From assembly GCA_001779205.1 (NCBI GenBank), contig MFJM01000023.1:1-38824 (forward strand): a stretch of DNA of 38,824 nt, written 5' to 3'. The notes below the pieces were generated by a model, which saw only the letters and a program-made list of their open reading frames with translations, did not search any database and was not told where the DNA came from. Origin of the DNA: Candidatus Gottesmanbacteria bacterium RIFCSPHIGHO2_02_FULL_39_14. Its GTDB lineage: Bacteria > Patescibacteriota > Microgenomatia > 2-02-FULL-39-11. Positions 3,184-25,619 of the stretch are shown piece after piece (position 1 is the first letter of the stretch; every line of letters starts with the position of its first letter). Both the position numbers and the translations under genes were made by a program.

Positions 3184-4240
3184 GGAGCTTTTTAGGTATG
3201 ACGGAGGTTAAACTGGAAACTAAACCAAGACTGATATAGGTACTGACAATGGAACTTCCGCCGTATGACAGCAAAGGTAAAGTGATACCGGTAATCGGCA
3301 GGAGTCCTAAATTCATAGCAATATTAATGAAAATTTGAGCAAATATCTGACAAAAAATTCCGACAGCCAACAGCCGTCCTAGTCGGTATTCAGAATTTAG
3401 GGCTATTAGTAATATTCTGACCAGAATAATGATATATAAAATGAGAAGTATAAAACCACCGAAAAATCCTAATGACTCTACCAGGGAAGCAAAAATAAAA
3501 TCTGTCTGGTATTCGGGCAGAAAAAGAAGACGACTTTGTGTTCCACGTCCGAGACCTAAGCCGGCCAGACCTCCAGATCCAATGGCGATCATAGACTGGA
3601 TAGCATTATAACCGGCACCTGAGGGATCCAAATTAGGATTGATAAAAGAAAACAGACGCTGCTTTTGATAATCCTTTAAGATTAACCAAATGCCGGGTAA
3701 TAATGTAAAAAAAGATAAAAAACCGGTTAACAAAATTGAGATATAAACACCAGATATAATAAGAAGTCCGGTAAAGAAGGAAAGATAAATTATGGCATTA
3801 CCCAAATCAGGTTGAAGAAATATTAATACCAGAAACGGCAAAAAACCCAATGTATAGCCGACAATAGAGACAGGACCCGGCTGATTATCTTTACTTAAGA
3901 ACGAGGCGAAGGTGATGATGATCAACGGCTTTAATATTTCTGATGGCTGAAGGATAAAAAATCCAAAATCAATCCAACGGTGAGCACCGCGGATTTGGGG
4001 GAGGAGAAAAATAATCAGTAAAAAAATTACAGAAAAGATATAAAACTGGAAAGTATATTTTGGGATGAACCTAATGTCAAGTGAAGTGAACATCAGATAT
4101 AAGAAGACACCAATAAGAGAATAAATTAACTGGGGACCGGCAAGATTGGGACTAGTGGACAGAAGTAGAAAGATACTGATGCCGGAAATACTTAATGAAG
4201 GCAAGAGAAGAAAAGGATCTAGCCTTCGGAAATAATTCAT
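3170..4240 (-). CDS. rodA: RodA-type SEDS peptidoglycan polymerase
   Basis: SEDS-family glycosyltransferase that polymerises lipid II into glycan strands in the membrane, usually with a class B PBP during elongation. The protein is 356 residues with about ten membrane segments. Family marks are GAHRWIDFGFFILQPSE, FLQPDLGNA, GAGYNAIQSMIAIGSGG, FLPEYQTDFIFA (with the conserved Asp) and the C-terminal PLLSYGGSSIV. RodA rather than FtsW is preferred because a second SEDS gene lies inside the dcw cluster (11427-12539), and this one is short and lacks a long N-terminus. Its ATG overlaps the ileS stop (ATGA), so translation is probably coupled to ileS. No elongation-type PBP2 gene is beside it. Confidence 0.88.
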   Translation of the reverse strand: MNYFRRLDPFLLLPSLSISGISIFLLLSTSPNLAGPQLIYSLIGVFLYLMFTSLDIRFIPKYTFQFYIFSVIFLLIIFLLPQIRGAHRWIDFGFFILQPSEILKPLIIITFASFLSKDNQPGPVSIVGYTLGFLPFLVLIFLQPDLGNAIIYLSFFTGLLIISGVYISILLTGFLSFFTLLPGIWLILKDYQKQRLFSFINPNLDPSGAGYNAIQSMIAIGSGGLAGLGLGRGTQSRLLFLPEYQTDFIFASLVESLGFFGGFILLILYIIILVRILLIALNSEYRLGRLLAVGIFCQIFAQIFINIAMNLGLLPITGITLPLLSYGGSSIVSTYISLGLVSSLTSVIPKKLLVIR

Positions 4241-7179
4241 ACCTTAATTATTTTATCATCGTCCCCTTTTTCCAATTCTACAGCCAGCGTTTCTCTTTTG
4301 ATATAATCTGTATATTCCTCAGGCCAACTTTTTAGAGTAAGAATTATTTTGTCAGTTATTAAGAAACCCAAATCTTTTCGTTTGATTTGAATATTTCTGA
4401 CCAGTTCCCTAGCTTCTCCTTCTTTATCAAGAAGGTCTTTTGATACTTTGACTTCTTTTGCCGGATAAATAAGGTTACCGTTTATAAAAAGGTTTTTAAT
4501 GTTCAGCTCGGTTAAGACAATTTGCCAAAGTTGATCATTGACCTTTTTCAATCTATTGTCTGATTTTATTTCCAGTTTGATTAGAGGCTGGCGAACTTTT
4601 ATTCCTTTTTCCTTTCTCTGTCTATGTCCTTTTTCAACTAACTTTCTTACCCATATCATTTGATTTTCCAATTTTTTATCAATCAATTGTTTATTAACAA
4701 CTGGCCAACTAGAAAGATGTACGGATATTCCATCTGTCAGGTTAAGGAATATATTTTCGCTCAGAAAAGGAATAAATGGCGAAAGAATCTTGGATAAAGT
4801 CAACTGAATTGTATATAAAGTCCGATAACAGTTATTTTTATCTTCCAAATAATTGGAAGTCGGACCTACCCTGTCTCTGGAACGCCGGACGTACCACTGT
4901 GAGAGATCAGTAACAAAATCTTCCAAAGTTAAAGAGGCATTATGAACATCATAAATCAATAAAGAATCATTAACTGTAATTAAGATTGAATTTAATCGGG
5001 AAAGTATCCAACGATCGAGAAGGTTTGGCACAGTCAGGTAGTTTTTCTGATCAGGGATAAATCCGTCGATATTGGCATAGGTTATAAAAAAATTATAGAC
5101 ATTCCATAAAAGCAGGTGGAATTTTCTTCTGGTTTCGTCGGCTCTTTTAAAGCCGAAGAGAATATTCTGTTCAGGATCCTGCTTAACAAACATCCAGCGC
5201 ATAACATCTACACCAATTTTATCGGCTGCAGTATTGAATTCGATAGCGTTACCCCAGGATTTATGCATAGGCCGACTATCCTCACCCAAAAGCGTGGCAA
5301 ATCCCAGTACGGTTTTGAAGGGGTTAGTCTTTTCAAGAACAGTACCCATAACCAGAAGTGAATAGAACCAGTTTTTAAACTGACCAGGAAAAGATTCAGT
5401 GATAAAATCAGCCGGAAACCATTTTTTCCATTCAGATCTAGCAGTTTTATACAGAGGCGAACCCTGGTTGTTCTTAGTAATAGTGGAAAAACTTATTATC
5501 CCGGCATCCAGCCAGGGGTTGCCGACGTCAGCAATTCGTTCAACAGCGCTTTGACACTTAGTGCAGATTATTTTAACTTCATCAATCCAAGGTTTATGGG
5601 GTGAGTGGCCGGAAAACTTTTCCCAACCTTTGACGGCTTTTTTTTGTAATTCTTCTTTTCCGCCTATTACTTCAAAATAAGCACACTGTGAGCACTCATA
5701 GATAGGCAAAGCCAAACCCCAATAACGATTTTTTTTGGAGATCAACCAATCGTGCATGTTCTCCAACCAATCAAGTTCCCGTTGCCGACCAAAAGCAGGA
5801 AGCCATTTAATATGACGGCTAACGTCTTTCAACTGTTGTCTAAGAGTGCGTTTTTTATCGTCTGTGGGATCAATTTTATCCATAGCAATATACCACTCCT
5901 TGGCTACCTTCCAGACAAGCTCGGTCTTGCAGCGCCAGCAGCGGGGATAGCGATGTTTAATTTTTTGCGTTTTTAATAAAAAGTTACGACCTTCATTTTT
6001 TAAATAATCAAGAATTATTTCAGGTTGCCTTTTGGCATTTTTTCCTGATAACTGCCCAAAACCTTGCCGATAATCAGCATTATCACAAATTACAGGATTT
6101 ACCAAAGGAAGATTAAGCTTTTTGCCTAATTTAAAATCTTCCTCTCCGGTTGAAGGGGAGGTATGTACCAGACCAGTCCCCTCTTCTATGCTAATCGGCA
6201 TCAGCTTCTCATCGGTAACAACAACAGCATGAAACAATTCGGGACTTTTATTTTGGGCTTTGACGACATTAGGAAGATGATCATAAGGAGCAATATATTT
6301 AAGACCGGAAAGAGCTTCTCCTTTGACTTCTTTTACTATTTTAATATCAGATTGGGGAAAGACGGACTTAACCAAATCTTTGGCAACCCAATATTTATTT
6401 TGGTTAACTTCAACCAGCGAATAAGACAGGTCTTTCCCTACAGCAACAGCTGTATTGGCAGGAATAGTCCAGGGAGTAGTCGTCCAGACCGTGAGATATT
6501 CTTTATCACAGCCAATAATAGGAAATTTTAGATAAACAGTTTCATGAGATACTTCCTGATAATCTTCCGTTAAAATTTCGTGTTGGGAAATGGCTGTTTC
6601 GCATCTTGGACACCAGGGAACCACATCATTTCCTTTATAGATCCATCCTCTTTTCCAACAAACCTTCAAAAAATGCCAGATCATATAATTATTCTCATCC
6701 GACATGGTGTAATAAGAGTTTTGCCAATCCATGAAGTAGCCTAACCTGATGCTTTGTTTGGTTTGGATGGCAGCATATTTATAGACGCGTTCTCTACAGA
6801 GATTGACAAATTTAGAAATGGACTTTTCCTTGTCCCCGGCAACTAAATTCTCAATGTCTTTTTTGCTTTTTAAGCCAAGCTCTTTCTCTACTTCCACTTC
6901 AACCCAAAGACCCTGGCAATCAAAGCCATTTTGAAATCGCTGGTTAAATCCCTTAAGATTGAAGAAACGCTGCCAAAGATCTTTGTAAGTTCGTCCCCAA
7001 GCATGATGAACACCCATGGGATTATTAGCGGTTATCGGACCATCAAAAAAGGAAAACCGGTAGCTCGACCTTGTATTTTTATCGAGATATTTAGCCAGTA
7101 TATTATTTTTATGCCAATAAGCTAAAACTTCTTGTTCCAATCTTACAAAGTCTACATGAGGACTGACTGGTTTGAACAT
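4237..7179 (-). CDS. ileS: Isoleucyl-tRNA synthetase, divergent form
   Basis: Class I aminoacyl-tRNA synthetase charging tRNA-Ile, 980 residues, close to the family size. Visible parts are the Rossmann fold with a HIGH-type motif in the form GVHHAWGRTYKD (about 56-66), a zinc-like WCPRCETAISQHE, the editing (CP1) domain with WTTTPWTIPANTAVAVG and GTGLVHTSPSTGEEDF, a second pair CWRCKTELVW, and ECSQC/CTKCQ. The KMSKS-type loop reads PMHKSWGN (about 637-644), followed by the anticodon-binding domain. HHAW and MHKSW are departures from HIGH and KMSKS that I recall from Chloroflexi-like class I ligases. Valine or leucine specificity is less likely because of the editing-domain pattern and length. 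It lies 16 bases after ftsZ and overlaps rodA by 4 bases. Confidence 0.85.
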   Translation of the reverse strand: MFKPVSPHVDFVRLEQEVLAYWHKNNILAKYLDKNTRSSYRFSFFDGPITANNPMGVHHAWGRTYKDLWQRFFNLKGFNQRFQNGFDCQGLWVEVEVEKELGLKSKKDIENLVAGDKEKSISKFVNLCRERVYKYAAIQTKQSIRLGYFMDWQNSYYTMSDENNYMIWHFLKVCWKRGWIYKGNDVVPWCPRCETAISQHEILTEDYQEVSHETVYLKFPIIGCDKEYLTVWTTTPWTIPANTAVAVGKDLSYSLVEVNQNKYWVAKDLVKSVFPQSDIKIVKEVKGEALSGLKYIAPYDHLPNVVKAQNKSPELFHAVVVTDEKLMPISIEEGTGLVHTSPSTGEEDFKLGKKLNLPLVNPVICDNADYRQGFGQLSGKNAKRQPEIILDYLKNEGRNFLLKTQKIKHRYPRCWRCKTELVWKVAKEWYIAMDKIDPTDDKKRTLRQQLKDVSRHIKWLPAFGRQRELDWLENMHDWLISKKNRYWGLALPIYECSQCAYFEVIGGKEELQKKAVKGWEKFSGHSPHKPWIDEVKIICTKCQSAVERIADVGNPWLDAGIISFSTITKNNQGSPLYKTARSEWKKWFPADFITESFPGQFKNWFYSLLVMGTVLEKTNPFKTVLGFATLLGEDSRPMHKSWGNAIEFNTAADKIGVDVMRWMFVKQDPEQNILFGFKRADETRRKFHLLLWNVYNFFITYANIDGFIPDQKNYLTVPNLLDRWILSRLNSILITVNDSLLIYDVHNASLTLEDFVTDLSQWYVRRSRDRVGPTSNYLEDKNNCYRTLYTIQLTLSKILSPFIPFLSENIFLNLTDGISVHLSSWPVVNKQLIDKKLENQMIWVRKLVEKGHRQRKEKGIKVRQPLIKLEIKSDNRLKKVNDQLWQIVLTELNIKNLFINGNLIYPAKEVKVSKDLLDKEGEARELVRNIQIKRKDLGFLITDKIILTLKSWPEEYTDYIKRETLAVELEKGDDDKIIKV

Positions 7180-11426: not shown

Positions 11427-12539
11427 TTATTTTTTTCGGACCGTAAATTTACTAATATTGATAAGAATACCAATAGACATTAACGAAATGATAAGATTTG
11501 ATCCGCCGTAAGAGATAAAAGGAAGAGGTATACCGGTTAAGGGAAAAATAGCCACCATGGCGCCAAGATTGATTAATATTTGAAATCCGAAAAGGGATAA
11601 TATTCCGGCAGATAATAAAAGAGAAAATTTATCCGGGGAATTTTTAGCCAAAAGATAAATACGATAAAGAAAATAAATATAAAAAACCAGTAAAAAACAG
11701 GTTCCTAAAAATCCAATTTCTTCCCCAATGATGGCAAAAATGGAATCGGTGGTGGCTTCCGGCAAGAACTGATATTTTTGACGAGAGGCACCTAAACCTA
11801 AACCAAAAAAACCACCCGAACCTAAAGAAATTAAAATTTGTCTTATATGATACGAAGAACCTAATGGATCACTATTTGGATCAAAATACGTCATTAATCT
11901 TTGATAACGATATGGGGAAATAATAGACAAAAATATTATCGCTAAAACTACCCCTGGAATGAGTATCATAAAATGAGAGAGGGGAGATGAAGATATAAAG
12001 TAAACCACTAAAAATATCGTTGTTAAAATCACCCCCGTACCCAAATCCGGTTGAATAATTACTAAACCAACAACAAATCCCAATAGCAAGACGAAGGAGA
12101 ATAATCTTCCTTTCTCTTTATTTGATAACCAGGCTGATAAATACAATATAAGACTAATTTTGGCAAGTTCTGATGGTTGAAATGTAAATTGGCCGATACC
12201 GATCCAGCGTCTGGCTCCCTGGAATTTAAGACCAATCCCCGGGGCAAGGACAGCGATCAGTGAAATAATGGTAATAAGCAATACAGGTACGGAGAGAAAG
12301 TAATATTTCTGATAATGGATACGAGAGAGTATACCCAAGAGGATAAAACCTACTACTGCCCAAATAATTTGATCTTTGACGAAATGGTATTTATCTGAAA
12401 AAGCTTGAAAGGCAGCTACGTTGGACGCTTCATAAATCATCACGATGCCAAAAACCGCTAATAATAAGGGCATCAGAACAAGTAAATAATCAACTTTTTT
12501 TTCTTGAGGCAAAAACTTTAGATACTCTCTTTTTCTCAT
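11427..12539 (-). CDS. ftsW: FtsW-type SEDS septal peptidoglycan polymerase
   Basis: SEDS glycosyltransferase acting with FtsI at the septum. It has about ten membrane segments and the family marks GARRWIGIGQFTFQPSELAK, IIQPDLGTG, SSYHIRQILISLGSGG, FLPEATTDSIFAIIGEE (conserved Asp) and PFISYGGSNLI. An earlier ATG at 12560 would add seven residues. The ATG at 12539 forms a TAATG stop-start overlap with mraY and is chosen; no ribosome binding site distinguishes them. The gene sits between mraY and murG. In many bacteria murD separates mraY and ftsW; here it is missing. Confidence 0.93.
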   Translation of the reverse strand: MRKREYLKFLPQEKKVDYLLVLMPLLLAVFGIVMIYEASNVAAFQAFSDKYHFVKDQIIWAVVGFILLGILSRIHYQKYYFLSVPVLLITIISLIAVLAPGIGLKFQGARRWIGIGQFTFQPSELAKISLILYLSAWLSNKEKGRLFSFVLLLGFVVGLVIIQPDLGTGVILTTIFLVVYFISSSPLSHFMILIPGVVLAIIFLSIISPYRYQRLMTYFDPNSDPLGSSYHIRQILISLGSGGFFGLGLGASRQKYQFLPEATTDSIFAIIGEEIGFLGTCFLLVFYIYFLYRIYLLAKNSPDKFSLLLSAGILSLFGFQILINLGAMVAIFPLTGIPLPFISYGGSNLIISLMSIGILINISKFTVRKK

Positions 12540-13576
12540 TAACTTATAAAAGCCAGCCATAAACCGATCATGGCTAAAACTAAAGTGGCCAGCCAGGCTC
12601 GGAAGACGATAGTTGATTCATGCCATCCTTTTTCCTGAAGCCAGAGATGCAATGGAGCTACCCGCATAATTTTTTTCCCGGTATATTTTTTACTTAACAA
12701 TTGAATAAGCGAGGTTAATATTTCCAATACAAAAATACCACCAATAATTATTAGAGAAAAAGATTTCCCCAATAAGAGACCGATAACGCTTAATGTTGCT
12801 CCGAAAGACAAAGCCCCAACATCCCCTAAAAAAATTCTGGCCGGATAGATATTGAAATAGAGAAAAGCGATTAATCCTCCGAGCCAAATAGCAATGAATA
12901 ACGTTAATGGAGTATCTAAAATGGAATTGGAAATTACCCAAAAAGCAATCAGACAGATCAGCAAAACTCCCGTAGCCAGACCATCCAGACCGTCAGTTAT
13001 ATTAAAGGCATTGGCGAAGGAAATTATGACGAAAGTTGAAAAAATTACATAAAACACGCCTACCTGCCAAACTCCAAAAAAAGGGATGTTAATGATCGAT
13101 ATCTTGAGTTCATTAAAAAGCCAAAAAGAAATGAGGAGTGAAATGATGATCTCCAAAATTAGTTTATGCCTTAATTTCAGACCGAAAAAATGTTCTTTTT
13201 TGCCAAAAAATATCTTTTTTATATCATCATAAAGTCCAATTAATCCGAAAGATATAAAAGTAAAAAGCAGAATTTTGATTTCAACGATAATATTGGCATA
13301 TATTGAAGTTATTGGTATCCAAAAGAAATATAAAACAGGAAAAGTCAGAAGGAAGAGTAACGTAGTAGTCAGAATCAGCAAAAATCCTCCACCGATGGGA
13401 ATTCCGGCTTTTTGGCTATGATAGGCATCAAAAATAGGTGTCGGACGGTTTAAAGCATCGATGGTAACCTGAGGCTGCCTTTTAAATTTGAGTTTATAAA
13501 GAAGGTTAATAAAGGGTATGATTGTTGACGAATTCACCAAAAAAGAAATAATTAAAACCGCTAAAACAAATCCCAT
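12539..13576 (-). CDS. mraY: Phospho-MurNAc-pentapeptide transferase MraY
   Basis: Integral membrane enzyme that transfers phospho-MurNAc-peptide from UDP to undecaprenyl phosphate, making lipid I. It has 345 residues and about ten membrane helices. Key motifs are GGGFLLIL near the N-terminus, GLYDDIKK with the paired aspartates, NAFNITDGLDGLATG, IFLGDVGALSFG, and the C-terminal histidine loop MRVAPLHLWLQEKGWHES. The histidine motif (usually APxHHHxE) is degenerate, with LHLWLQ in place of the triple histidine, which is worth noting. A TATAAT touches the ATG directly and cannot act as its promoter. It starts 1 base after dgkA. Confidence 0.94.
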   Translation of the reverse strand: MGFVLAVLIISFLVNSSTIIPFINLLYKLKFKRQPQVTIDALNRPTPIFDAYHSQKAGIPIGGGFLLILTTTLLFLLTFPVLYFFWIPITSIYANIIVEIKILLFTFISFGLIGLYDDIKKIFFGKKEHFFGLKLRHKLILEIIISLLISFWLFNELKISIINIPFFGVWQVGVFYVIFSTFVIISFANAFNITDGLDGLATGVLLICLIAFWVISNSILDTPLTLFIAIWLGGLIAFLYFNIYPARIFLGDVGALSFGATLSVIGLLLGKSFSLIIIGGIFVLEILTSLIQLLSKKYTGKKIMRVAPLHLWLQEKGWHESTIVFRAWLATLVLAMIGLWLAFIS

Positions 13577-14028: not shown

Positions 14029-15051
14029 TCAATAACCTTTCATTATTTTTCTGAGATATTCTACAGTATAAGTCTTAAGGTAGGATAGTTTATTAACAGG
14101 CAAATCCCGGCAATGATAATATTCAATAATTCTACCACCAAACCCTTTCTTAAAAAGAGTTAAATTATTCCAGGGATGTCTATTTCTGAAAGGAGGGGCA
14201 ATTCCCCAAAAATTATACATTTTCATCTGTCTTTTTTTAGCTTGCCGAATTGCCTGCCATTGAAGAAGATAATTAACTGGAATTTTCTGCTGACGGGAGG
14301 CGCTATGATGATATATAGCCTGATTCTGATAAAAAATTATAATAGCCGCCGACAGAAGTTTTTTCTGATAATAACCTTTAAAGATAAGCGCTTGATGTTG
14401 GCTTCCGAAAATTTCAAATTCCTCCTTGATTCCCTGATGTTTAGCGAAATGTTGACGCTTGGCGGTCAAATGATAAAGATCCAGAAATTCGTCTAGATCT
14501 TTCCGATCAGCACTGGTATTTATAACAATATTATTTTTTAATGCCCAACGAATCAAATAACGGGTTGTTTTTCTCATGCTTTTTAGCAGGTCATCTTCAC
14601 TTTTATCAAGATCAAGCACCCAACAATACTCCCCATCTAAACTGGCTATAGGAGAATTGACAAATCCCATCTTATTAAACAGCCGATCCAGATTATTTTG
14701 CGGCAGGACTAACGGGCTAAGACGGACAAAAGAAGCTTTTTCAATCTTGGAAAGTTGAATTAAATAATTCTTTAGAAAGTATAAGACAGGCTTATCCCAT
14801 TGAGATAAAATTGGACCGTGTCTTATATGTAAAAATATTCCACGGCGGGCATTAACTTTAACAAGCTGAAATATGCCTATTAAAACATTATTGTCATTAA
14901 AAAGACCGTAACGGTTGAGAAAAAGAACTTTTTTATCCCTTGTCCGGTTGATTGTTTCACCCCAATTCCATGACTGAAAGAAACTCTGCGGTGAATGAGA
15001 GGTGATAAATTTTTCCCATTGATTTTTATCGTCTATTATTTTTATCCGCAT
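14029..15051 (-). CDS. FemAB/FemX-like aminoacyl-tRNA-dependent peptidyltransferase
   Basis: Fem-family enzymes use aminoacyl-tRNA to add amino acids to the stem peptide of lipid II (or UDP-MurNAc-peptide), building interpeptide bridges. The 340-residue protein has the double GNAT-like fold. Seen are FFQSWNWGE near the N-terminus, FVRLSPLVLP, LDLDKSEDDLLKSMRKTTRYLIRWALK (typical of the Fem core), a helical connection, and YNFWGIAPPFRNRHPWNNLTLFKKGFGG near the C-terminus. The coiled-coil arm of true FemA/B is not obvious, which is more like FemX. The gene overlaps the DegT gene by 26 bases and lies inside the dcw cluster, so a role in wall precursor modification is likely. The amino acid added cannot be told from the sequence. 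Confidence 0.85.
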   Translation of the reverse strand: MRIKIIDDKNQWEKFITSHSPQSFFQSWNWGETINRTRDKKVLFLNRYGLFNDNNVLIGIFQLVKVNARRGIFLHIRHGPILSQWDKPVLYFLKNYLIQLSKIEKASFVRLSPLVLPQNNLDRLFNKMGFVNSPIASLDGEYCWVLDLDKSEDDLLKSMRKTTRYLIRWALKNNIVINTSADRKDLDEFLDLYHLTAKRQHFAKHQGIKEEFEIFGSQHQALIFKGYYQKKLLSAAIIIFYQNQAIYHHSASRQQKIPVNYLLQWQAIRQAKKRQMKMYNFWGIAPPFRNRHPWNNLTLFKKGFGGRIIEYYHCRDLPVNKLSYLKTYTVEYLRKIMKGY

Positions 15052-16282
15052 ATTTTCTAATTAATTCGACGATATACCCCGAGTCTTTATCAGTCAAAGA
15101 GGGATAAGTAGGTAAATTGAGAGAAAGACTGGCCATTTTTTCTGCATATTCACTCGACCCTTTAGTATAAGCTATTTTATCGAATTCTACACCGGCAGGA
15201 TCGATTACATTGGCATACCATAATCCAAGAAGGATATGATATTGACGAAAAAATCGATATAGTTTATCCCGGTTTTTGACTAGAATATTGAATCTGAGAT
15301 AAATAGCCTCTTTATTGTCCGGAGGCAGGAAAATATTATTGATATCTTTTAACTGTCTAAAATAGAAACGGGCAATTGCCTGACGACGGACATTAAATAA
15401 AGAAAGTTTCTTAAGTTGATGATAAGCCAAACGGGCTAATGCATTGGGTAATTTGTAAGGTATGAAGGATGGTAAACCTCCTGTTAACTCTATAGGTTCA
15501 ATTGGCTTGGAAAGGAGGGTAATTTTTTGAAAGCAATAAAGTATAAATTTCCCCAGATAATAATTGTATAAAGGCAGAATGAAAAAAAAAGCCAAAGGGT
15601 GAATAACTTGCTTTACTATCCATTTATAATCAGGATAAGATAGACTAGAATAAATGTTTGATAGATTCTTTAAATTCTCAGATTTATTTCTGATAAAAGC
15701 AGCACCACCAAAAACGGAGGAAATGACCTTATCCCGCCCGAAACTGAAAAAAGCAGCATCGCCGAAACTACCTATCCTTTTACCCTGATGAGTAGCTCCT
15801 AAAGAATGTGCACAGTCTTCTATTAGTATGAGATTATATTTTTGAGTAATTTTTTTTATCATGTGAATTTGGGCAGGTATACCGAAAGTATGTTGAACAA
15901 TAATTGCCTTCGTTTTATCAGTAATATATTGTGTTAATTGAGCAGGATCAATATTAAGACTGTTGTCAATATCGGAATAGACCGGTTTAGCACCAACCCA
16001 AATAATAGGATCGGGTACAGCTACACAGGTAAATGACTGGATAATTACTTCCATTCCCGGTCCGATATTAAAGCTTTTAAGAAGACAATATAGAGCCGAA
16101 CGGCCGCTATTAAACAAATATACCTGGTTCACCTGAAAATATTTCTTAAACCAGGAGATGACTTTTTTTTCCCAGCTACCCTTTTGCCAATTATAAATGT
16201 TTAAAAGGCTAGAAGCGGCTTGTCGAACATCATCAGGCTTAGTATTGGGAGATAAAGATATGGCTATTGGTCTATCGAACAT
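15026..16282 (-). CDS. DegT/DnrJ/EryC1/StrS family PLP aminotransferase
   Basis: Fold-type I PLP enzyme of the sugar aminotransferase family, which usually converts nucleotide-linked keto-sugars to amino-sugars. The 418-residue protein shows the early FNSGRSALYCLLKSF, GMEVIIQSFTCVAVPDPI, the PLP-contacting Asp156 in LIEDCAHSLGA, FGDAAFFSFGRDKVISS with the presumed Schiff-base Lys185, and a C-terminal small domain. A stretch near residues 225-260 is strongly hydrophobic (FFILPLYNYYLGKFILYCF) and may touch the membrane, which is unusual for this family. It forms TAATG with the murF stop and overlaps the FemAB-like gene. A role in modifying wall or surface sugars is inferred; the substrate is unknown. 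Confidence 0.85.
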   Translation of the reverse strand: MFDRPIAISLSPNTKPDDVRQAASSLLNIYNWQKGSWEKKVISWFKKYFQVNQVYLFNSGRSALYCLLKSFNIGPGMEVIIQSFTCVAVPDPIIWVGAKPVYSDIDNSLNIDPAQLTQYITDKTKAIIVQHTFGIPAQIHMIKKITQKYNLILIEDCAHSLGATHQGKRIGSFGDAAFFSFGRDKVISSVFGGAAFIRNKSENLKNLSNIYSSLSYPDYKWIVKQVIHPLAFFFILPLYNYYLGKFILYCFQKITLLSKPIEPIELTGGLPSFIPYKLPNALARLAYHQLKKLSLFNVRRQAIARFYFRQLKDINNIFLPPDNKEAIYLRFNILVKNRDKLYRFFRQYHILLGLWYANVIDPAGVEFDKIAYTKGSSEYAEKMASLSLNLPTYPSLTDKDSGYIVELIRKYADKNNRR

Positions 16283-17901
16283 TATATTTTAATAAAAAAA
16301 GAAATCCACTTGAAGGATTCTTTACCGGCAAAAAGTATAACAGAATCATAGGTTAATTCTTCGCGGATTCTTGTGACTGTCTTATTATCTGCTAATAATA
16401 GTTTGGCAATTCTTTTCTCCGAGTGGTTTATTCCGGACAATAAATCAGGATAATTATTGAGATTAGTCGTAATCAGAAAATGGCAGATATCGCCGGCTTT
16501 TTTGCCAATATTTTGATGGAACTCCCTGCTTTTATTACCTAATTCTATCAGAGGATTTAAGAAAATTACCCGCAGACCATGATATAACTTAAGATAATTA
16601 ATCGCTGACAAAATCCCTTCATAATTAACGTTAAAGGTATCGTCAATCAAGGTAAGATTCTTAGTATCTCTGACTATTTGCATGGTTTTAGCCGGCGGGG
16701 TTATGGTCGAAACCTCTTTTTGGATAACAGGCATTGACACACCCAATAGATTAGCAGCAGAAATTGCCAGGACAAGATTGTCAATATTCTGTTCACCGAT
16801 AAGGTTAGCTTTAAAGTGGAAAAGACGGTTATTTAATTTCAAATCAAACTGAAGAAATGTTTTATTTATCTGCCGATTTTTTGTCATTTCTGATTTGTTA
16901 ATTAACAGCATATTATCCAGCCGTTTCTTTGCTTTAACGATCATTGGTTTTAAAAGCGGATCGGGGCTGTTAATGATTGCCAATCCACCTGAGGGTAGAC
17001 TGTCAATGAGTTCAAACTTAGCCTTAATAAGGTTTTGCCGGGATCCGAATAAATCAAGATGTTGTGAGCCAAGAGCAGTAATAATACCAGTGTGAGGAGA
17101 AACTAATTGACAAATTTTATTGATTTCTCCCCTTCTATAAGCACCCATCTCCACTATAAAAAAATCTATATTTTCATTTAGATTTAGATTAATATGGCGG
17201 GCAACGGACAGGTCGGTATTAAAACTGCCAGGGGTGGCGGAAACTTTATATTCGGCAGATAATATTTTTTCTAGAAATGTTTTAGTTGAGGTTTTACCAA
17301 AACTGCCGGTGATAGCAATAACTTTGAGTCGGGAAAGACGGCGGATTTTAAATTGGGCTTGTTTATAAATAATCAATCTGAAAAAGTGGGAAGGAAGATT
17401 GAAAAACGTAACCGATAAAACAACGGAAGGGGCTAATATTTTATCAAGCAGCGGACCAAGAAGAAGCACAGACACCCAATAAATATTAATTAGCGGGAAA
17501 AATTGAATACTTAATACCGCTATGATAATTAATACTGATTTAGGTGTAAATACGGGCAGACGCCATTTCTTTAAATACAAATCACGGATTGACAAAACAA
17601 GTTCTAAAATCCAGGTGAACCAAAACAGATAAAAAGAATAAATAATTACGGCAAATGAAGGAATTTCTCCTCTTAGGCGAGAATTGAAAATGGGAAAAAT
17701 ATAAATTAGTATGAATAAAATCCACTTAAAAATTGAGAGCTTATTGAATATTAACTGCCGGCCTTGATGGGTTTTTAAAAAAGACCAAAAACGGTCCCAA
17801 CGATATTCTTTTAATTGCCAAAGATAAGTCTGATAGAACACCTGCCTGAGGGAGCGAACAATAAAAGCTAATAAAATAATAAAAGCGATAATACTAATCA
17901 T
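16282..17901 (-). CDS. murF: Membrane-anchored MurF-like Mur ligase
   Basis: Mur ligase family protein, most like MurF, which adds D-Ala-D-Ala to the stem peptide using ATP. It has 539 residues. Residues ~1-180 hold four or five hydrophobic membrane segments (about 2-18, 58-75, 82-104, 121-155) in place of the soluble UDP-binding domain. The ATP loop AITGSFGKTSTKT follows at 196-208, then FIVEMGAYRRGEI, ITALGSQHLDLFGS (metal and carbamylated-lysine region with KAKFEL), the hinge, and the MurF-like LIDDTFNVNYEGILSAINYL and NPLIELGNKSREFHQNIG. MurF is preferred over MurE/MurD because of that DD.N.N motif and the position in the dcw cluster. The membrane part is the odd feature and suggests a lipid-linked substrate or a membrane complex with MraY. 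Confidence 0.82.
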   Translation of the reverse strand: MISIIAFIILLAFIVRSLRQVFYQTYLWQLKEYRWDRFWSFLKTHQGRQLIFNKLSIFKWILFILIYIFPIFNSRLRGEIPSFAVIIYSFYLFWFTWILELVLSIRDLYLKKWRLPVFTPKSVLIIIAVLSIQFFPLINIYWVSVLLLGPLLDKILAPSVVLSVTFFNLPSHFFRLIIYKQAQFKIRRLSRLKVIAITGSFGKTSTKTFLEKILSAEYKVSATPGSFNTDLSVARHINLNLNENIDFFIVEMGAYRRGEINKICQLVSPHTGIITALGSQHLDLFGSRQNLIKAKFELIDSLPSGGLAIINSPDPLLKPMIVKAKKRLDNMLLINKSEMTKNRQINKTFLQFDLKLNNRLFHFKANLIGEQNIDNLVLAISAANLLGVSMPVIQKEVSTITPPAKTMQIVRDTKNLTLIDDTFNVNYEGILSAINYLKLYHGLRVIFLNPLIELGNKSREFHQNIGKKAGDICHFLITTNLNNYPDLLSGINHSEKRIAKLLLADNKTVTRIREELTYDSVILFAGKESFKWISFFIKI

Positions 17902-18620
17902 TATTTATTAATTACAGGTCTAAGATATTTGATAAAAATATCCGTGTTCTCGTAAACAAAAGCGTGACCAACACCATTGACTATAATTAGACAGCTTTTG
18001 GGAATGAGACGTTTCATTTTTTTAGCAATTGAAATGGGTACAAGCGAATCCTGCCTACCCCAGATTAAAAAGGTAGGAACAGTTATTTTTGCCAACAGAA
18101 AAGTAAGTTTTTCGCTGACCACATTTTGGAACGTTTCCCTCAGATGTTGATCCGTATGATAAAAATCAGAAGCTCCGGCTAATTTATAGAGAACTTTTTG
18201 GGAAATATTTTTGAAAACGGATAGAAAGGGCAGACTAAATATTAGTTTTCCTAATTTTGCCAGCAGGAGAAAAAAAATAACTTTTTCCCGTGGTACAGGC
18301 GGAATACCAGGAACTCCTGTCAGGATTAATTTATTTATTTTTTCAGGATTTATAACGGCCAATTTTATCCCAATCCGACCACCGAATGAATGACAAATAA
18401 AATTTGCTTTATTAATATTATTTTGTTTTAAAAAATTAACGACAAAGAATAAATAATCATCCAGTTTAAACGACTTTTCCGGTTTATTTGATTTTCCAAA
18501 ACCCGGCAGGTCAGGACAATACACCCGATAGCCCATCTTAGACAGAGAGTTACTAAGGGAGGTAAATTTTTTACTGTTTAAATTCCAACCATGGAGAATG
18601 ACAAACGGGATTTTTTTCAT
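17901..18620 (-). CDS. Alpha/beta hydrolase
   Basis: Alpha/beta hydrolase fold enzyme of about 240 residues. Seen are the oxyanion-hole segment VILHGWNLNSKKF, YRVYCPDLPGFGKS, the nucleophile elbow CHSFGG (Ser), a lid region with hydrophobic residues (about 130-170), the acid in IWGRQDSLVP, and the catalytic His in VNGVGHAFVYE. The triad is therefore complete. The ATG at 18620 (MKKIPFVILHG) starts just before strand 1 and is preferred; a TTG at 18659 would add 13 residues. Its stop overlaps the murF start codon, implying coupled translation. The substrate is unknown. Its place in the wall operon suggests an esterase or thioesterase acting on wall precursors or lipids, but this is a guess. Confidence 0.85.
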   Translation of the reverse strand: MKKIPFVILHGWNLNSKKFTSLSNSLSKMGYRVYCPDLPGFGKSNKPEKSFKLDDYLFFVVNFLKQNNINKANFICHSFGGRIGIKLAVINPEKINKLILTGVPGIPPVPREKVIFFLLLAKLGKLIFSLPFLSVFKNISQKVLYKLAGASDFYHTDQHLRETFQNVVSEKLTFLLAKITVPTFLIWGRQDSLVPISIAKKMKRLIPKSCLIIVNGVGHAFVYENTDIFIKYLRPVINK

Positions 18621-18680
18621 ATCCGACAGAGTTTTTCTTGACGGTAACAGATTTAGCAAGATTTCTTGATCTTTGAAAAT

Positions 18681-21342: not shown

Positions 21343-22338
21343 TCAGATTTCATCTACTAAAACTACCTCCAGTTCCAGATTTACGGAAAATTTTTTTCTG
21401 ATTTTATTTCTGGCCAGATCTATTAATTTTAACACATCTGAGAATTTAGCTTCACCTTTATTGATAAGAAAATTGGCATGCTTATCTGAAAACATAATAT
21501 TACCAATAGTTTTTCCTTTAAGCCCCACAGCCTCCAAAAGGAAACCTGCAGAACAGGTGTAATTGGGAGTTGTTAATCTTATGGCCTGACTTTTTTCTAT
21601 ATTACGAAAGAGACAACCGGCGGTTAAACTTCCCGAGGGTTGAGTTTTTTGCCTATAGTCAAGAGCTTGTTTGGCAATTGTCCAAAGTTTATCTTTATTA
21701 TTTTTTAGTAATGATATGGTAACGGTTAAAACAATATCTTTTGTTTTTTGAATAACAGAACGGTCATAATTGAAGCGGAAATAACCTCTGGGAACTTCGA
21801 TGATACCTTTTTGAGGACGATATATCCGGGCACTGACAAGGGTATCTCCGAAAAATTTACCCTGTTTCAGGTTATGAGCATTAATCCAGATAGCCCCGCC
21901 AACCGTCCCAGGTTGGCCGAGGAAATACTCCAAACCGGACAGTCCCTGTTCAACGGTGTTTCTAACGAGTCTATTAATAGACACTCCACTATCGACTTCC
22001 AAATAGACTTTATCTACATACGAATTGGTTTTGGATTTTGTAAAACGCCTGCCGGTTAATCCTTTAAAACAGATATCTGCCGATTCATTTTTTATAACCA
22101 GTCCACGGAATCCCTTATCGGGAAAAATTATATTTGTACCACCGCCTAAAACAAAATAATTAACTTTGAATTTTTCCGCTATGGTGAGGGCATTGACTAA
22201 ATCCTTAGAATTTCCGGCCTTAAAAAAAAGATCGGAGGGACCGCCAATCTTAATACTGGTATATTTTTTTAAAATTTCATTTATCAGTACCCTATTTACT
22301 CCTAATCTACTGATTATTTCCTGATAAGGTGAATTCAT
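21343..22338 (-). CDS. murB: UDP-N-acetylenolpyruvoylglucosamine reductase MurB
   Basis: FAD/NADPH enzyme reducing the enolpyruvyl group to lactate, forming UDP-MurNAc. It has 331 residues. The FAD_binding_4 domain shows TSIKIGGPSDLFFKA, NYFVLGGGTNIIFPDKGF, and LEYFLGQPGTVGGAIWINAH. The C-terminal MurB domain shows LTAGCLFRN, AGFLLEAVGLKG and FSDKHANFLINKGEA. The proton donor position, Ser in E. coli (GSFFKNP), appears as Cys in GCLFRN. This substitution is reported in part of the family, so activity is still expected. It shares an ATGA-type overlap with murC. A weak GAAAG precedes the ATG. Confidence 0.94.
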   Translation of the reverse strand: MNSPYQEIISRLGVNRVLINEILKKYTSIKIGGPSDLFFKAGNSKDLVNALTIAEKFKVNYFVLGGGTNIIFPDKGFRGLVIKNESADICFKGLTGRRFTKSKTNSYVDKVYLEVDSGVSINRLVRNTVEQGLSGLEYFLGQPGTVGGAIWINAHNLKQGKFFGDTLVSARIYRPQKGIIEVPRGYFRFNYDRSVIQKTKDIVLTVTISLLKNNKDKLWTIAKQALDYRQKTQPSGSLTAGCLFRNIEKSQAIRLTTPNYTCSAGFLLEAVGLKGKTIGNIMFSDKHANFLINKGEAKFSDVLKLIDLARNKIRKKFSVNLELEVVLVDEI

Positions 22339-23753
22339 TGTTCTTTCAATAAATTAAGTATGGAGGGATGCCATTTATTCAAATTACCGGCTCCCATGGT
22401 GACGATAATATTTTGTGCTGTTAATTTATTTTTTAAAAGTTTCAAAGCTGTTATCTGGTTTTTTACGTAATAGGCATTATTTCTAAGACGGTTAATCCCG
22501 GCTACTACATCCAAAGAATTAATCGATTTATCAAATTTTTCCCTGGCCGAGGGAAAAATATCAGCTATCAAGACATCATCAGCCTTAATAAATGAAGAAA
22601 CAAATTCCTCAAGAAGTATTTTAGTTCTGGAAAAGGTATGGGGTTGGAAAATAACAGTCAACCGATAATCGGGATACCAGTCTTTAAAGGCTGAAAGAGT
22701 GGCCTTTATTTCACTGGGATGGTGAGCATAATCATCATAAAGCAAAATATTATTTTTTTGTCCAATCAGTTCAAAACGTCGATTACAACCCGTATATTTT
22801 TTTAAATATTCCCTTATTTTATTCCAGGGCAAACCAACCTCTTGGGCAATAATTGAAGCCGCCAAGGCATTGAGAAGATTATGCCTGCCGGCAACATTAA
22901 TTATTAATTCACCAAGACGGATGTTTTTACTCTCTATGGCGACAAACGATGTTTTACCTGACTGGAAATATTTTTCAATCCGATAATCAGAGGTAGGAGA
23001 AAATCCGTAGGTAATGACTCTGGAAGATTTAAATTTATCAATCATGTCAGCTACAACAGGATTGTCAAGACATACTATTAACGTTCCCCGATAATCCAAT
23101 TTTTGGGAAAAATCCAAATAAGCCTTTTTAACTTCTGCCAAATCACTGAAACTATCAGGATGATCAAATTCGATATTAGTGATGACGGCAATTTTGGGGT
23201 TTAACCAAAGGAAGCGAGGCGTTCTATCGGTTAACGGGCAAGTCATGTATTCATCTGCTTCGGCGATGAAAAATTTCCCCTGACCATAGTGGCCAGCCGG
23301 TCCAATATTGTTTATAAAAGCAGTACCGATGGAATATGACGGATCGTAACCTGCCTCTTTTAATATAAGAGCAATCATTGAAGCGGTGGATGTTTTGCCA
23401 TGACAGCCGGATACGGCAATACCGAATTTATCATTCATTAGCATACCTAAATAACGACCATGCATAAATGTCGGAATTTGCATTTTTTTAGCCTGAAGTG
23501 CTTCCGGATTAGTAGCGCCACCATGAGCCCCGGTTACTACAACCAAATTAATGTCCTTATTTATATGTTGCGGGGCAAAACCATGCAAAACTCTAATTCC
23601 AATTTGGTCAAGTATGGGATCGGTTGAGAATTTTTCTTCAACATCCGAGCCAGTAACCAGGTAACCTTTTTCTTTAAGATAAACAGCCAGGGCAGTCATA
23701 GCAACTCCTTTGATACCTACCAGATGAGCTTTGGGGGGAGTTTTTTTCATCAT
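22335..23753 (-). CDS. murC: UDP-N-acetylmuramate-L-alanine ligase MurC
   Basis: Mur ligase adding L-alanine to UDP-MurNAc in the cytoplasm. It has 472 residues, the usual length, with all three domains. The N-terminal UDP-binding Rossmann domain has HLVGIKGVAMTALA and VTGSD. The ATP domain has the P-loop SGCHGKTSTASM (115-126), EADEY and ITNIEFDHPD. The C-terminal domain has YDDYAHHPSEIKATL and VIFQPHTFSRT. It therefore keeps the UDP-sugar domain that MurE and MurF lack here. It starts 2 bases after pgeF and overlaps murB by 4 bases. Two adjacent ATG codons (23753 and 23750) are possible starts. Confidence 0.95.
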   Translation of the reverse strand: MMKKTPPKAHLVGIKGVAMTALAVYLKEKGYLVTGSDVEEKFSTDPILDQIGIRVLHGFAPQHINKDINLVVVTGAHGGATNPEALQAKKMQIPTFMHGRYLGMLMNDKFGIAVSGCHGKTSTASMIALILKEAGYDPSYSIGTAFINNIGPAGHYGQGKFFIAEADEYMTCPLTDRTPRFLWLNPKIAVITNIEFDHPDSFSDLAEVKKAYLDFSQKLDYRGTLIVCLDNPVVADMIDKFKSSRVITYGFSPTSDYRIEKYFQSGKTSFVAIESKNIRLGELIINVAGRHNLLNALAASIIAQEVGLPWNKIREYLKKYTGCNRRFELIGQKNNILLYDDYAHHPSEIKATLSAFKDWYPDYRLTVIFQPHTFSRTKILLEEFVSSFIKADDVLIADIFPSAREKFDKSINSLDVVAGINRLRNNAYYVKNQITALKLLKNKLTAQNIIVTMGAGNLNKWHPSILNLLKEQ

Positions 23754-23755
23754 AG

Positions 23756-24406
23756 TTATTTGATCATCAATAAATTATAATTTCTTTGGTCGGTATGATC
23801 CCGTCGATACGAATAATAATCGTCAGAACAATTAGTACAAATATTAACATCGTCAATGCTATGTTGAAGAACTCCTTTATTTTTAAGCTGAAATATTGCT
23901 ACCAGAGACAGGTTCAAATAATAATTATTTTCTTTTTCTTGAAAAAAAGGCTGGTCCGGGGCGATAATATTCATAAATTTCTTTATTAATGATTTATCCA
24001 CTTGATAACAACAAACACCGATATGAGGTCCAATGCCTACTTTGACATTTATACTGTCAACCCCGTACAAAGAAAGTTCTTGAAAAGCGTTAGTTATTAA
24101 ACCGGCAAATAAACTCTTCCAGCCAGCATGGAGTGCTAAAATTACTTTTTTATCAGGAGCATAAATAAAAATCGGTAAGCAATCAGCTGTTCTAATGGTT
24201 AAAATACACTTTTTGGAGGAAATTAATCCATCAGAGTTACGGTGAAAAATACTTTTTCCGACGATTCCGATTTTATTTTGATGCATTTGTCCGCAAGAAA
24301 TGCTTTTACCAATTAACTTAAGAAAATTACCAGACCTACTTTCATAACGATTTAAAAAGTAATGATCAATTGATTTTTCTTTACTAAGAAGAGTTGACTG
24401 AACCAT
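23756..24406 (-). CDS. pgeF: Peptidoglycan editing factor PgeF (YfiH/LACC1 family)
   Basis: Cytoplasmic zinc enzyme of the YfiH family, older name polyphenol oxidase/laccase domain. In E. coli it removes wrongly built UDP-MurNAc-L-Ser from the wall pathway; relatives act on purine nucleosides. The 216-residue protein shows the metal-site pattern: CGQMHQNKI (His42), RTADCLPIFIY (Cys76), LALHAGWKS (His93), GPHIGVCCYQV, and CTNCSDDYYSYRRD. It lies between murE and murC and overlaps murE by 23 bases. Genetic linkage to murC fits a proofreading role after MurC. The length is slightly short for the family (~240). Confidence 0.92.
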   Translation of the reverse strand: MVQSTLLSKEKSIDHYFLNRYESRSGNFLKLIGKSISCGQMHQNKIGIVGKSIFHRNSDGLISSKKCILTIRTADCLPIFIYAPDKKVILALHAGWKSLFAGLITNAFQELSLYGVDSINVKVGIGPHIGVCCYQVDKSLIKKFMNIIAPDQPFFQEKENNYYLNLSLVAIFQLKNKGVLQHSIDDVNICTNCSDDYYSYRRDHTDQRNYNLLMIK

Positions 24407-25619
24407 ATAGAGCTTTTAAAACAGCCTGTTTTTCATCCCAAGGATATTCATCTTTACCGTAACACATTGATTTTTCATGGCCTTTGCCGCAGCAGATAAC
24501 AGTATCTCCGGGCTTTGCCAACCGTCTAATGGCAAAATTTATAGCTTCCTGCCGGTCGGGAATTCTGAAGAAATATTTTCTACCATTATGGAAGTGTAAT
24601 TTAGCATCAGATTTGTTCATTTCGATGACTTTTTTACTTAAGAGACCTTGAGCAATTTGGTTAATTATTGATCTGACATCTTCGGTCCGTGGATCTTCAG
24701 CGGTAAGCACGGTAATATCGGCAAATTCTCCCGCAGTTTTACCCATGATCGGTCTTTTTAAATAATCTCTTAAACCAGCGGCGCCAAAAACAGCGATAAC
24801 CCGTTTCGGTGTAAATTGACGGACTGTGATAAGAACTTGTTTTAAAGCATTGATTTTATGGGCAAAATCAATATAGATTCGGAAATGCTTTTTTGTTTTT
24901 ATTTCTTCCAATCTGCCAGGAACCCCAGGAAATGTTCGGATGGCCTTTTGAATATATTGATCACCAATTTTAAGAATTTTGGCTACTGTTACAGCAGCTA
25001 AAATATTGTATTTATTGTAGTTGCCCAACAAATGGGGATTTAACGGGATGTCAAATGTTTTAGAGAAAGGTTTCTTTTTTAGAGAAAAGGTTAATATATT
25101 GCCTGTAACCTTTTTTTTTAAATAGGAAAAATTTTCATCGTCTGAGTTAAGAATTGCATATTTGGCACCTTTTAATATTTTGGCTTTAGCGGAGAGATAG
25201 TTTTTCATGTTTTTATGATAGTCCAAATGTTCATGTGAAATATTGGTTATAACGGCAATATCAATATGAATTCCAGAGACGCGATACTGATCCAAAGCAT
25301 GAGAAGTAACTTCCAATACAAGATAAAGACTAGCTGCTTTTTGTGCCTGATAAATAAGTCTTTGCAATTTATATGGTGAAGGGGTAGTTACATGAAATCC
25401 AGTATCCAGATGTTTTCCTTGCAGGTTGGCTTCAACGGTAGAGATGAATGAAACCGGCAAATTGGCTGTTTTAAGGATGTGATAAACAAGGTGGGTGGTG
25501 GTTGTTTTTCCATCAGTACCGGTAATTCCGATGACGGTCATTTTCTTGGCCGGAAAACCATACCAATAAGAAGAAAATAAGGCAGAAAGAAAATGATAGA
25601 TATTTTTTAGATACTGCAT
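24384..25619 (-). CDS. murE: MurE-like Mur ligase without N-terminal UDP-binding domain
   Basis: Mur ligase adding the third amino acid of the stem peptide. It has 411 residues against the usual ~490. The P-loop GITGTDGKTTTTHL comes already at residues 32-45, so the N-terminal domain that binds the UDP-sugar (about 80-90 residues) is missing. A stop codon in frame 12 bases upstream of the ATG excludes a longer version. The rest is MurE-like: LEVTSHALDQYRV, ITNISHEHLDYHKNMKNYLSAKAKI (metal and carbamyl-lysine), FPGVPGRLEEI, and IYIDFAHKINALKQVL. The substrate motif reads EDPRTED where diaminopimelate enzymes have DNPR; the arginine is kept, which leans towards diaminopimelate but does not prove it. 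It follows ftsI and overlaps pgeF. Confidence 0.85.
   Translation of the reverse strand: MQYLKNIYHFLSALFSSYWYGFPAKKMTVIGITGTDGKTTTTHLVYHILKTANLPVSFISTVEANLQGKHLDTGFHVTTPSPYKLQRLIYQAQKAASLYLVLEVTSHALDQYRVSGIHIDIAVITNISHEHLDYHKNMKNYLSAKAKILKGAKYAILNSDDENFSYLKKKVTGNILTFSLKKKPFSKTFDIPLNPHLLGNYNKYNILAAVTVAKILKIGDQYIQKAIRTFPGVPGRLEEIKTKKHFRIYIDFAHKINALKQVLITVRQFTPKRVIAVFGAAGLRDYLKRPIMGKTAGEFADITVLTAEDPRTEDVRSIINQIAQGLLSKKVIEMNKSDAKLHFHNGRKYFFRIPDRQEAINFAIRRLAKPGDTVICCGKGHEKSMCYGKDEYPWDEKQAVLKALYGSVNSS

Follow-up and report, generated by a model that had tools for sequence, protein, structure and literature searches.

The protein encoded at 16282..17901 on the reverse strand of the window, that is, of the whole 38,824-nucleotide stretch of contig MFJM01000023.1 from Candidatus Gottesmanbacteria bacterium RIFCSPHIGHO2_02_FULL_39_14 analysed here, is a MurF-type ligase with intact catalytic residues, the sole MurF found in this organism, which is integral to the membrane and accompanied by a conserved hydrolase partner. 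It belongs to a subfamily distinct from classical MurF. MurF is regarded as a soluble enzyme acting on UDP-MurNAc-tripeptide ahead of MraY, and the standard protein carries a soluble UDP-binding domain at its N-terminus. A phrase search of the open-access literature, extended by wider searches, returned no earlier report of a membrane-bound or membrane-anchored MurF.

Catalytic core and membrane domain of the window MurF

The open reading frame (539 amino acids, ATG start; all window features given below lie on the same reverse strand) was defined from the ORF itself, profile matches and a structural model. Pfam placed the Mur ligase middle domain (Mur_ligase_M) at residues 197-383 (16753..17313) and Mur_ligase_C at residues 407-527 (16321..16683), the latter with 25.1 bits, slightly below the cut-off of 28.4, while no Pfam domain was detected in residues 1-196. 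The top NCBIfam match was TIGR01143 (murF), with a score of 212.8 bits that is below the curated cut-off of 288.6; residues 182-526 aligned on profile positions 65-405, so that the alignment begins at position 65 of 418 and leaves domain 1 unmatched. We compared the ATP-loop lysine, the Mg-binding glutamate and histidine, the carbamylated-lysine position and the DD motif, and found that K203, E251, H281, K295 and D421 correspond to K111, E158, H188, K202 and D331 of E. coli MurF. The ATP loop GSFGKTS (residues 199-205, 17287..17307) and DDTFNVNYEG (residues 420-429, within the C-terminal domain), both named in an earlier note on this DNA, were located, and the MurF fingerprint DDxFNxN plus ELG is retained. 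Within its own genome the window protein is the top match of E. coli MurF, and the AlphaFold2 model of the full protein matched the MurF crystal structures 4qf5, 3zl8 and 1gg4 in Foldseek. The MurF identity proposed in that note is supported, and the coordinates and strand of the ORF are correct. The middle and C-terminal domains, the catalytic residues and the DDxYNxNP and ELG motifs are common to classical MurF and the window protein, which unlike the former has no domain 1, carries five transmembrane helices and a replaced KGSR loop, groups in a separate clade and has a hydrolase partner.

Where other Mur ligases have domain 1, the window protein has an all-helical domain with five transmembrane helices (residues 1-188, 17338..17901), as judged from hydropathy, AlphaFold2 and charge pattern. 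Hydropathy gave five hydrophobic segments ahead of the P-loop (1-19, 55-73, 85-103, 122-140 and 144-162), and the AlphaFold2 model, built from an alignment of 22 sequences (mean pLDDT 89.5, pTM 0.85), placed helices at 2-30, 54-75, 83-109, 120-138 and 142-188, with the first strand not before residue 193; helices were called from these two sources, and the alignments consisted of the window protein and sequences from related loci. Modelled alone, the N-domain formed the same helices (pLDDT 88.5), and Foldseek matched it to no PDB structure at E <= 0.001. The earlier proposal of a multi-pass membrane domain with four or five segments replacing the UDP-binding domain therefore stands, hydropathy and model agreeing on five segments, and the structure prediction that it called for is helical throughout to residue 188, with no UDP-binding domain.

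Across 39 homologues the mean numbers of lysine plus arginine per loop were 5.8, 0.2, 3.0, 0.3 and 6.6, in accordance with the positive-inside rule, and therefore an N-out, C-in topology is predicted, with the catalytic part and both conserved loops in the cytosol. The first of these loops, WQLKEYRWDR (residues 28-37, 17791..17820), follows the first helix, and the second, PVFTPK (PxxTxK; residues 116-121, 17539..17556), includes P116; in the alignments W28, Q29, K31, E32, Y33, R34, D36, R37 and P116 are near-invariant. When the same N-terminal region was sought in other CPR MurF proteins, as had been suggested, it was found in dozens of genomes, and this recurrence with near-invariant positions makes the architecture more than a chance occurrence. 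The assembly is fragmented and incomplete (72 contigs, 85.5% complete), which could favour the joining of an unrelated membrane ORF to MurF by assembly or gene calling; such an artefact is refuted by conservation and is practically out of the question, since architecture and gene order are alike in many independent genomes, some of them closed, and the AlphaFold model is a confident single chain.

Six Mur_ligase_M proteins were found in the genome, namely MurE, the window MurF, MurC, two MurD-like proteins and MurT. No second MurF, the finding that would have spoken against the earlier note, appeared among these six in an assembly that is 85.5% complete. The two MurD-like genes (940-2358 and 949-2373 of their own stretches), both with a similar gene next downstream in the same orientation, may reflect either duplication or contamination (3.6%). 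The MurT gene lies beside a GatD-like gene on contig 64 (244-2316 of that stretch), and amidation of the stem-peptide D-Glu on the lipid-linked precursor is therefore expected in this organism.

Distribution, phylogeny and gene partners

Sampling covered Patescibacteria and Bacillota, the latter set being centred on a Clostridiaceae MAG. A profile of the long N-domain was matched in 56 of 287 Patescibacteria genomes, and shorter versions with two or three helices were present in others; Gottesmanbacteria, Gracilibacteria, Peregrinibacteria, Magasanikbacteria, Kerfeldbacteria, Dojkabacteria and Andersenbacteria are among the carriers named. Patescibacteria contain three types of MurF: the classical one, the membrane one and an N-domainless one, whose P-loop lies at about residue 29-51. 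The N-domainless proteins share the absence of domain 1 with the window MurF but, unlike it, group with classical MurF, keep KGSR, and have neither transmembrane helices nor a hydrolase neighbour. Among 150 Bacillota genomes a MurF-profile search returned a membrane MurF as the best MurF match in six, and the N-domain search added one further carrier; the other matches in these genomes resemble other Mur ligases. These seven Bacillota genomes rule out an oddity confined to the CPR, and the membrane MurFs are better described as a separate MurF subfamily that includes Bacillota.

A tree built on the catalytic core, from which the N-domain and two long-branch rows were excluded, separated 43 membrane MurFs of both phyla from 37 classical and N-domainless MurFs with an SH-aLRT value of 100, obtained by a quick method with no bootstrap. 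Since the core by itself separates the family, we reject the view that membrane MurF is a classical MurF to which an anchor was recently fused. Descent of the N-domainless proteins from membrane MurF is likewise unsupported, given that they group with the classical type.

Membrane MurF is also set apart by its neighbour. Among loci with enough upstream sequence, an alpha/beta hydrolase gene lies directly upstream in 57 of 67 membrane-MurF loci (51/61 in Patescibacteria and 6/6 in Bacillota) versus none of 57 classical or N-domainless loci (Fisher p 2e-25, for loci that are not fully independent). The two genes overlap most often by 4 bp; the window hydrolase (17901..18659) overlaps murF by a single base. 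Reverse searches returned it as the only match in its own genome of the Bacillota and short-type hydrolases, and an HSFGG nucleophile motif with candidate downstream aspartate and histidine residues was recognized in all eight hydrolase sequences inspected. Our guess is that this partner, conserved in two phyla, might be an esterase or peptidase that works in the cytosol on the intermediate handled by MurF. The window MurF combines all the features that delimit the subfamily, namely the transmembrane domain with a Q-x-x-EYR-type motif, placement in the core clade and the upstream hydrolase.

The window itself is a dcw-type cluster, ten of whose genes were identified by family searches and the others read from the sequence, in the order mraZ, rsmH, ftsL, a transpeptidase gene, murE, pgeF, murC, murB, murA, a GlmU-like gene, the alpha/beta hydrolase gene, murF, degT, femAB, dgkA, mraY, ftsW, murG, ftsQ, ftsA and ftsZ. 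A cassette of four genes, hydrolase, membrane murF, degT and femAB, is conserved also outside dcw clusters; its last two members encode here a DegT/DnrJ/EryC1-type aminotransferase (15026..16282) and a FemAB-family protein (14029..15051). MraY (12539..13576; phmmer with E. coli MraY, E 1.5e-36) is encoded a few genes downstream of murF, in the same cluster.

Domain 1 loss and the changed C-terminal loop

MurE of the same window (411 amino acids, 24384..25619) also lacks the N-terminal UDP-binding domain, an observation absent from the earlier note, and MurC (472 amino acids, 22335..23753) is complete with domain 1. MurC retains the domain in the sampled genomes, the listed full-length profile matches starting at positions 1-3, while the MurE proteins scoring over the cut-off are without it in each of the 49 Patescibacteria genomes sampled that have a membrane or N-domainless MurF; their matches begin at profile positions 55-76, and the P-loop, in those inspected for it, lies at residue 35-50. 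Four Patescibacteria genomes with a classical MurF encode a MurE with a domain ahead of the P-loop; in three of the four, this leading domain resembles a MurC-like rather than a MurE-like Rossmann domain. MurE is complete in the Bacillota with membrane MurF. Within the sampled genomes, domain 1 has consequently been lost from MurF alone or from MurE and MurF together, and never from MurE with an intact MurF, a phyletic pattern that comes from related, non-independent lineages. Loss at the end of the pathway is what would be expected if the last ligations had shifted to a lipid-linked substrate.

The second distinctive region is the C-terminal loop, AGKE in the window MurF (residues 525-528, 16318..16329). 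Classical MurF has a KGSR-like sequence at this place, and the loop aligns with GKGHE of MurE. At the KGSR-loop positions most membrane MurFs carry glutamate and arginine or lysine, versus lysine and serine in all 36 others. The loop type co-segregates with the neighbouring gene, being ENDLPD-like in membrane MurFs beside ddl, EGK/EGR-like beside degT and femAB, as in the group of the window MurF, and KGSR-like in classical and N-domainless proteins; no mixed loci were seen. In S. aureus MurE, Glu-460 touches the incoming lysine and the E460A variant has very weak activity (PMC3829189); from the Lys-457 and Glu-460 described in that work, we read Glu-460 as the glutamate of the KGxE loop.

These features bear on the identity of the group that is added. 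In the sister subgroup ddl adjoins membrane murF, which supports genuine MurF activity in that group. The Ddl of the window's own subgroup is either distant, divergent or not detected, and the added group is for that reason uncertain. Searches of the genome's own contigs with E. coli and Bacillota queries found an alanine racemase and a DacA-like protein and detected neither Ddl nor MurI in this 85.5% complete assembly; several relatives had no Ddl match or CarB-like matches alone, and several had divergent Ddl-like proteins. The latter are ATP-grasp proteins (one at 4001-5077 of its stretch), some encoded as adjacent pairs and some as frames of about 800 amino acids with two matches. It could be argued that the MurF-like ligase of this subgroup adds a residue or dipeptide other than D-Ala-D-Ala, prepared by the DegT and FemAB neighbours, as the co-segregation of the changed specificity loop with degT/femAB, the lack of a detected Ddl in this genome and the similar searches in relatives might suggest. 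We regard this as improbable, since the fingerprint is retained, the window protein is the best match of E. coli MurF in its genome, and the genome also encodes alanine racemase and a DacA-like protein, while the divergent Ddl-like proteins of several relatives and the incompleteness of the assembly weaken the argument from absence. Such a change would in any case be compatible with ligation on a lipid-linked acceptor rather than strictly opposed to it.

Proposed ligation on a lipid-linked acceptor

The closest precedent is MurT, of the MurT/GatD lipid II amidotransferase, a Mur ligase that lacks domain 1 and acts on lipid-linked precursors, as we propose for membrane MurF. The substrates of MurT are lipid I and lipid II, for which, the authors of its structure argue, a UDP domain is not needed and would collide with the membrane (PMC6113224; PMC6085368; PMC3266927). 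Unlike the window MurF, MurT has no transmembrane domain, carries a Cys4 zinc ribbon and requires GatD; the MurT model was not among the NCBIfam matches of the window MurF, whose neighbours are the hydrolase and DegT, not GatD.

By analogy, membrane MurF may finish the stem peptide on lipid I or II at the inner, cytosolic surface of the membrane; the loops WQxKEYRxDR and PxxTxK would lie close to the pyrophosphate, at the place where UDP is bound in classical MurF. MraY would then act early. In the Patescibacteria with membrane MurF it might act after MurD, on UDP-MurNAc-dipeptide, since MurE also lacks domain 1 there, and in the Bacillota with membrane MurF after MurE, on the tripeptide. We consider the chances evenly balanced that this five-helix MurF, its catalytic domain in the cytosol, completes the stem peptide on a lipid-linked acceptor after an early MraY step. 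The fuller proposal, in which the membrane MurF and hydrolase finish the peptide on the lipid carrier after early MraY action and the added group is in the window's subgroup perhaps not D-Ala-D-Ala, falls somewhat short of even odds.

Alternatively, membrane-anchored MurF may still act on UDP-MurNAc-tripeptide, the helices holding it by MraY for direct hand-on and UDP being bound weakly or by the middle domain. The intact catalytic core, the nearness of mraY and the N-domainless MurFs, which indicate that domain 1 can be lost with no membrane domain gained, would all suit this arrangement, as would the in vitro formation of UDP-MurNAc-tripeptide by MurT (mentioned in PMC3266927 as data not shown), from which it follows that a missing domain 1 does not exclude a UDP substrate. 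Retention of the UDP substrate leaves unexplained, however, why the loss of domain 1 from MurE is confined to organisms in which MurF lacks it as well, and why the polar cytosolic loops are conserved and the C-terminal loop changed; we hold it to be plausible but rather doubtful. Action on a lipid-linked substrate, which the earlier note had put forward as possible, is now better motivated by the contrast between MurE and MurC, the MurT precedent and the weak use of dipeptide by MraY, a dipeptide-only analogue being a weak substrate of the B. subtilis enzyme (PMC4987650). Counted against it are that same weakness of the dipeptide for B. subtilis MraY and the existence of soluble N-domainless MurFs with no helices.

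The occurrence of membrane MurF in two phyla, together with its hydrolase and changed loop, suggests that the rule 'UDP-pentapeptide first, lipid second' may not hold for all bacteria. If true, lipid-linked completion would mean revising the order in which textbooks have peptidoglycan precursors made, and there is a fair chance that membrane MurF alters the order of these steps in its carriers. Membrane MurF also offers a way into the cell-wall chemistry of Patescibacteria that have not been cultured.
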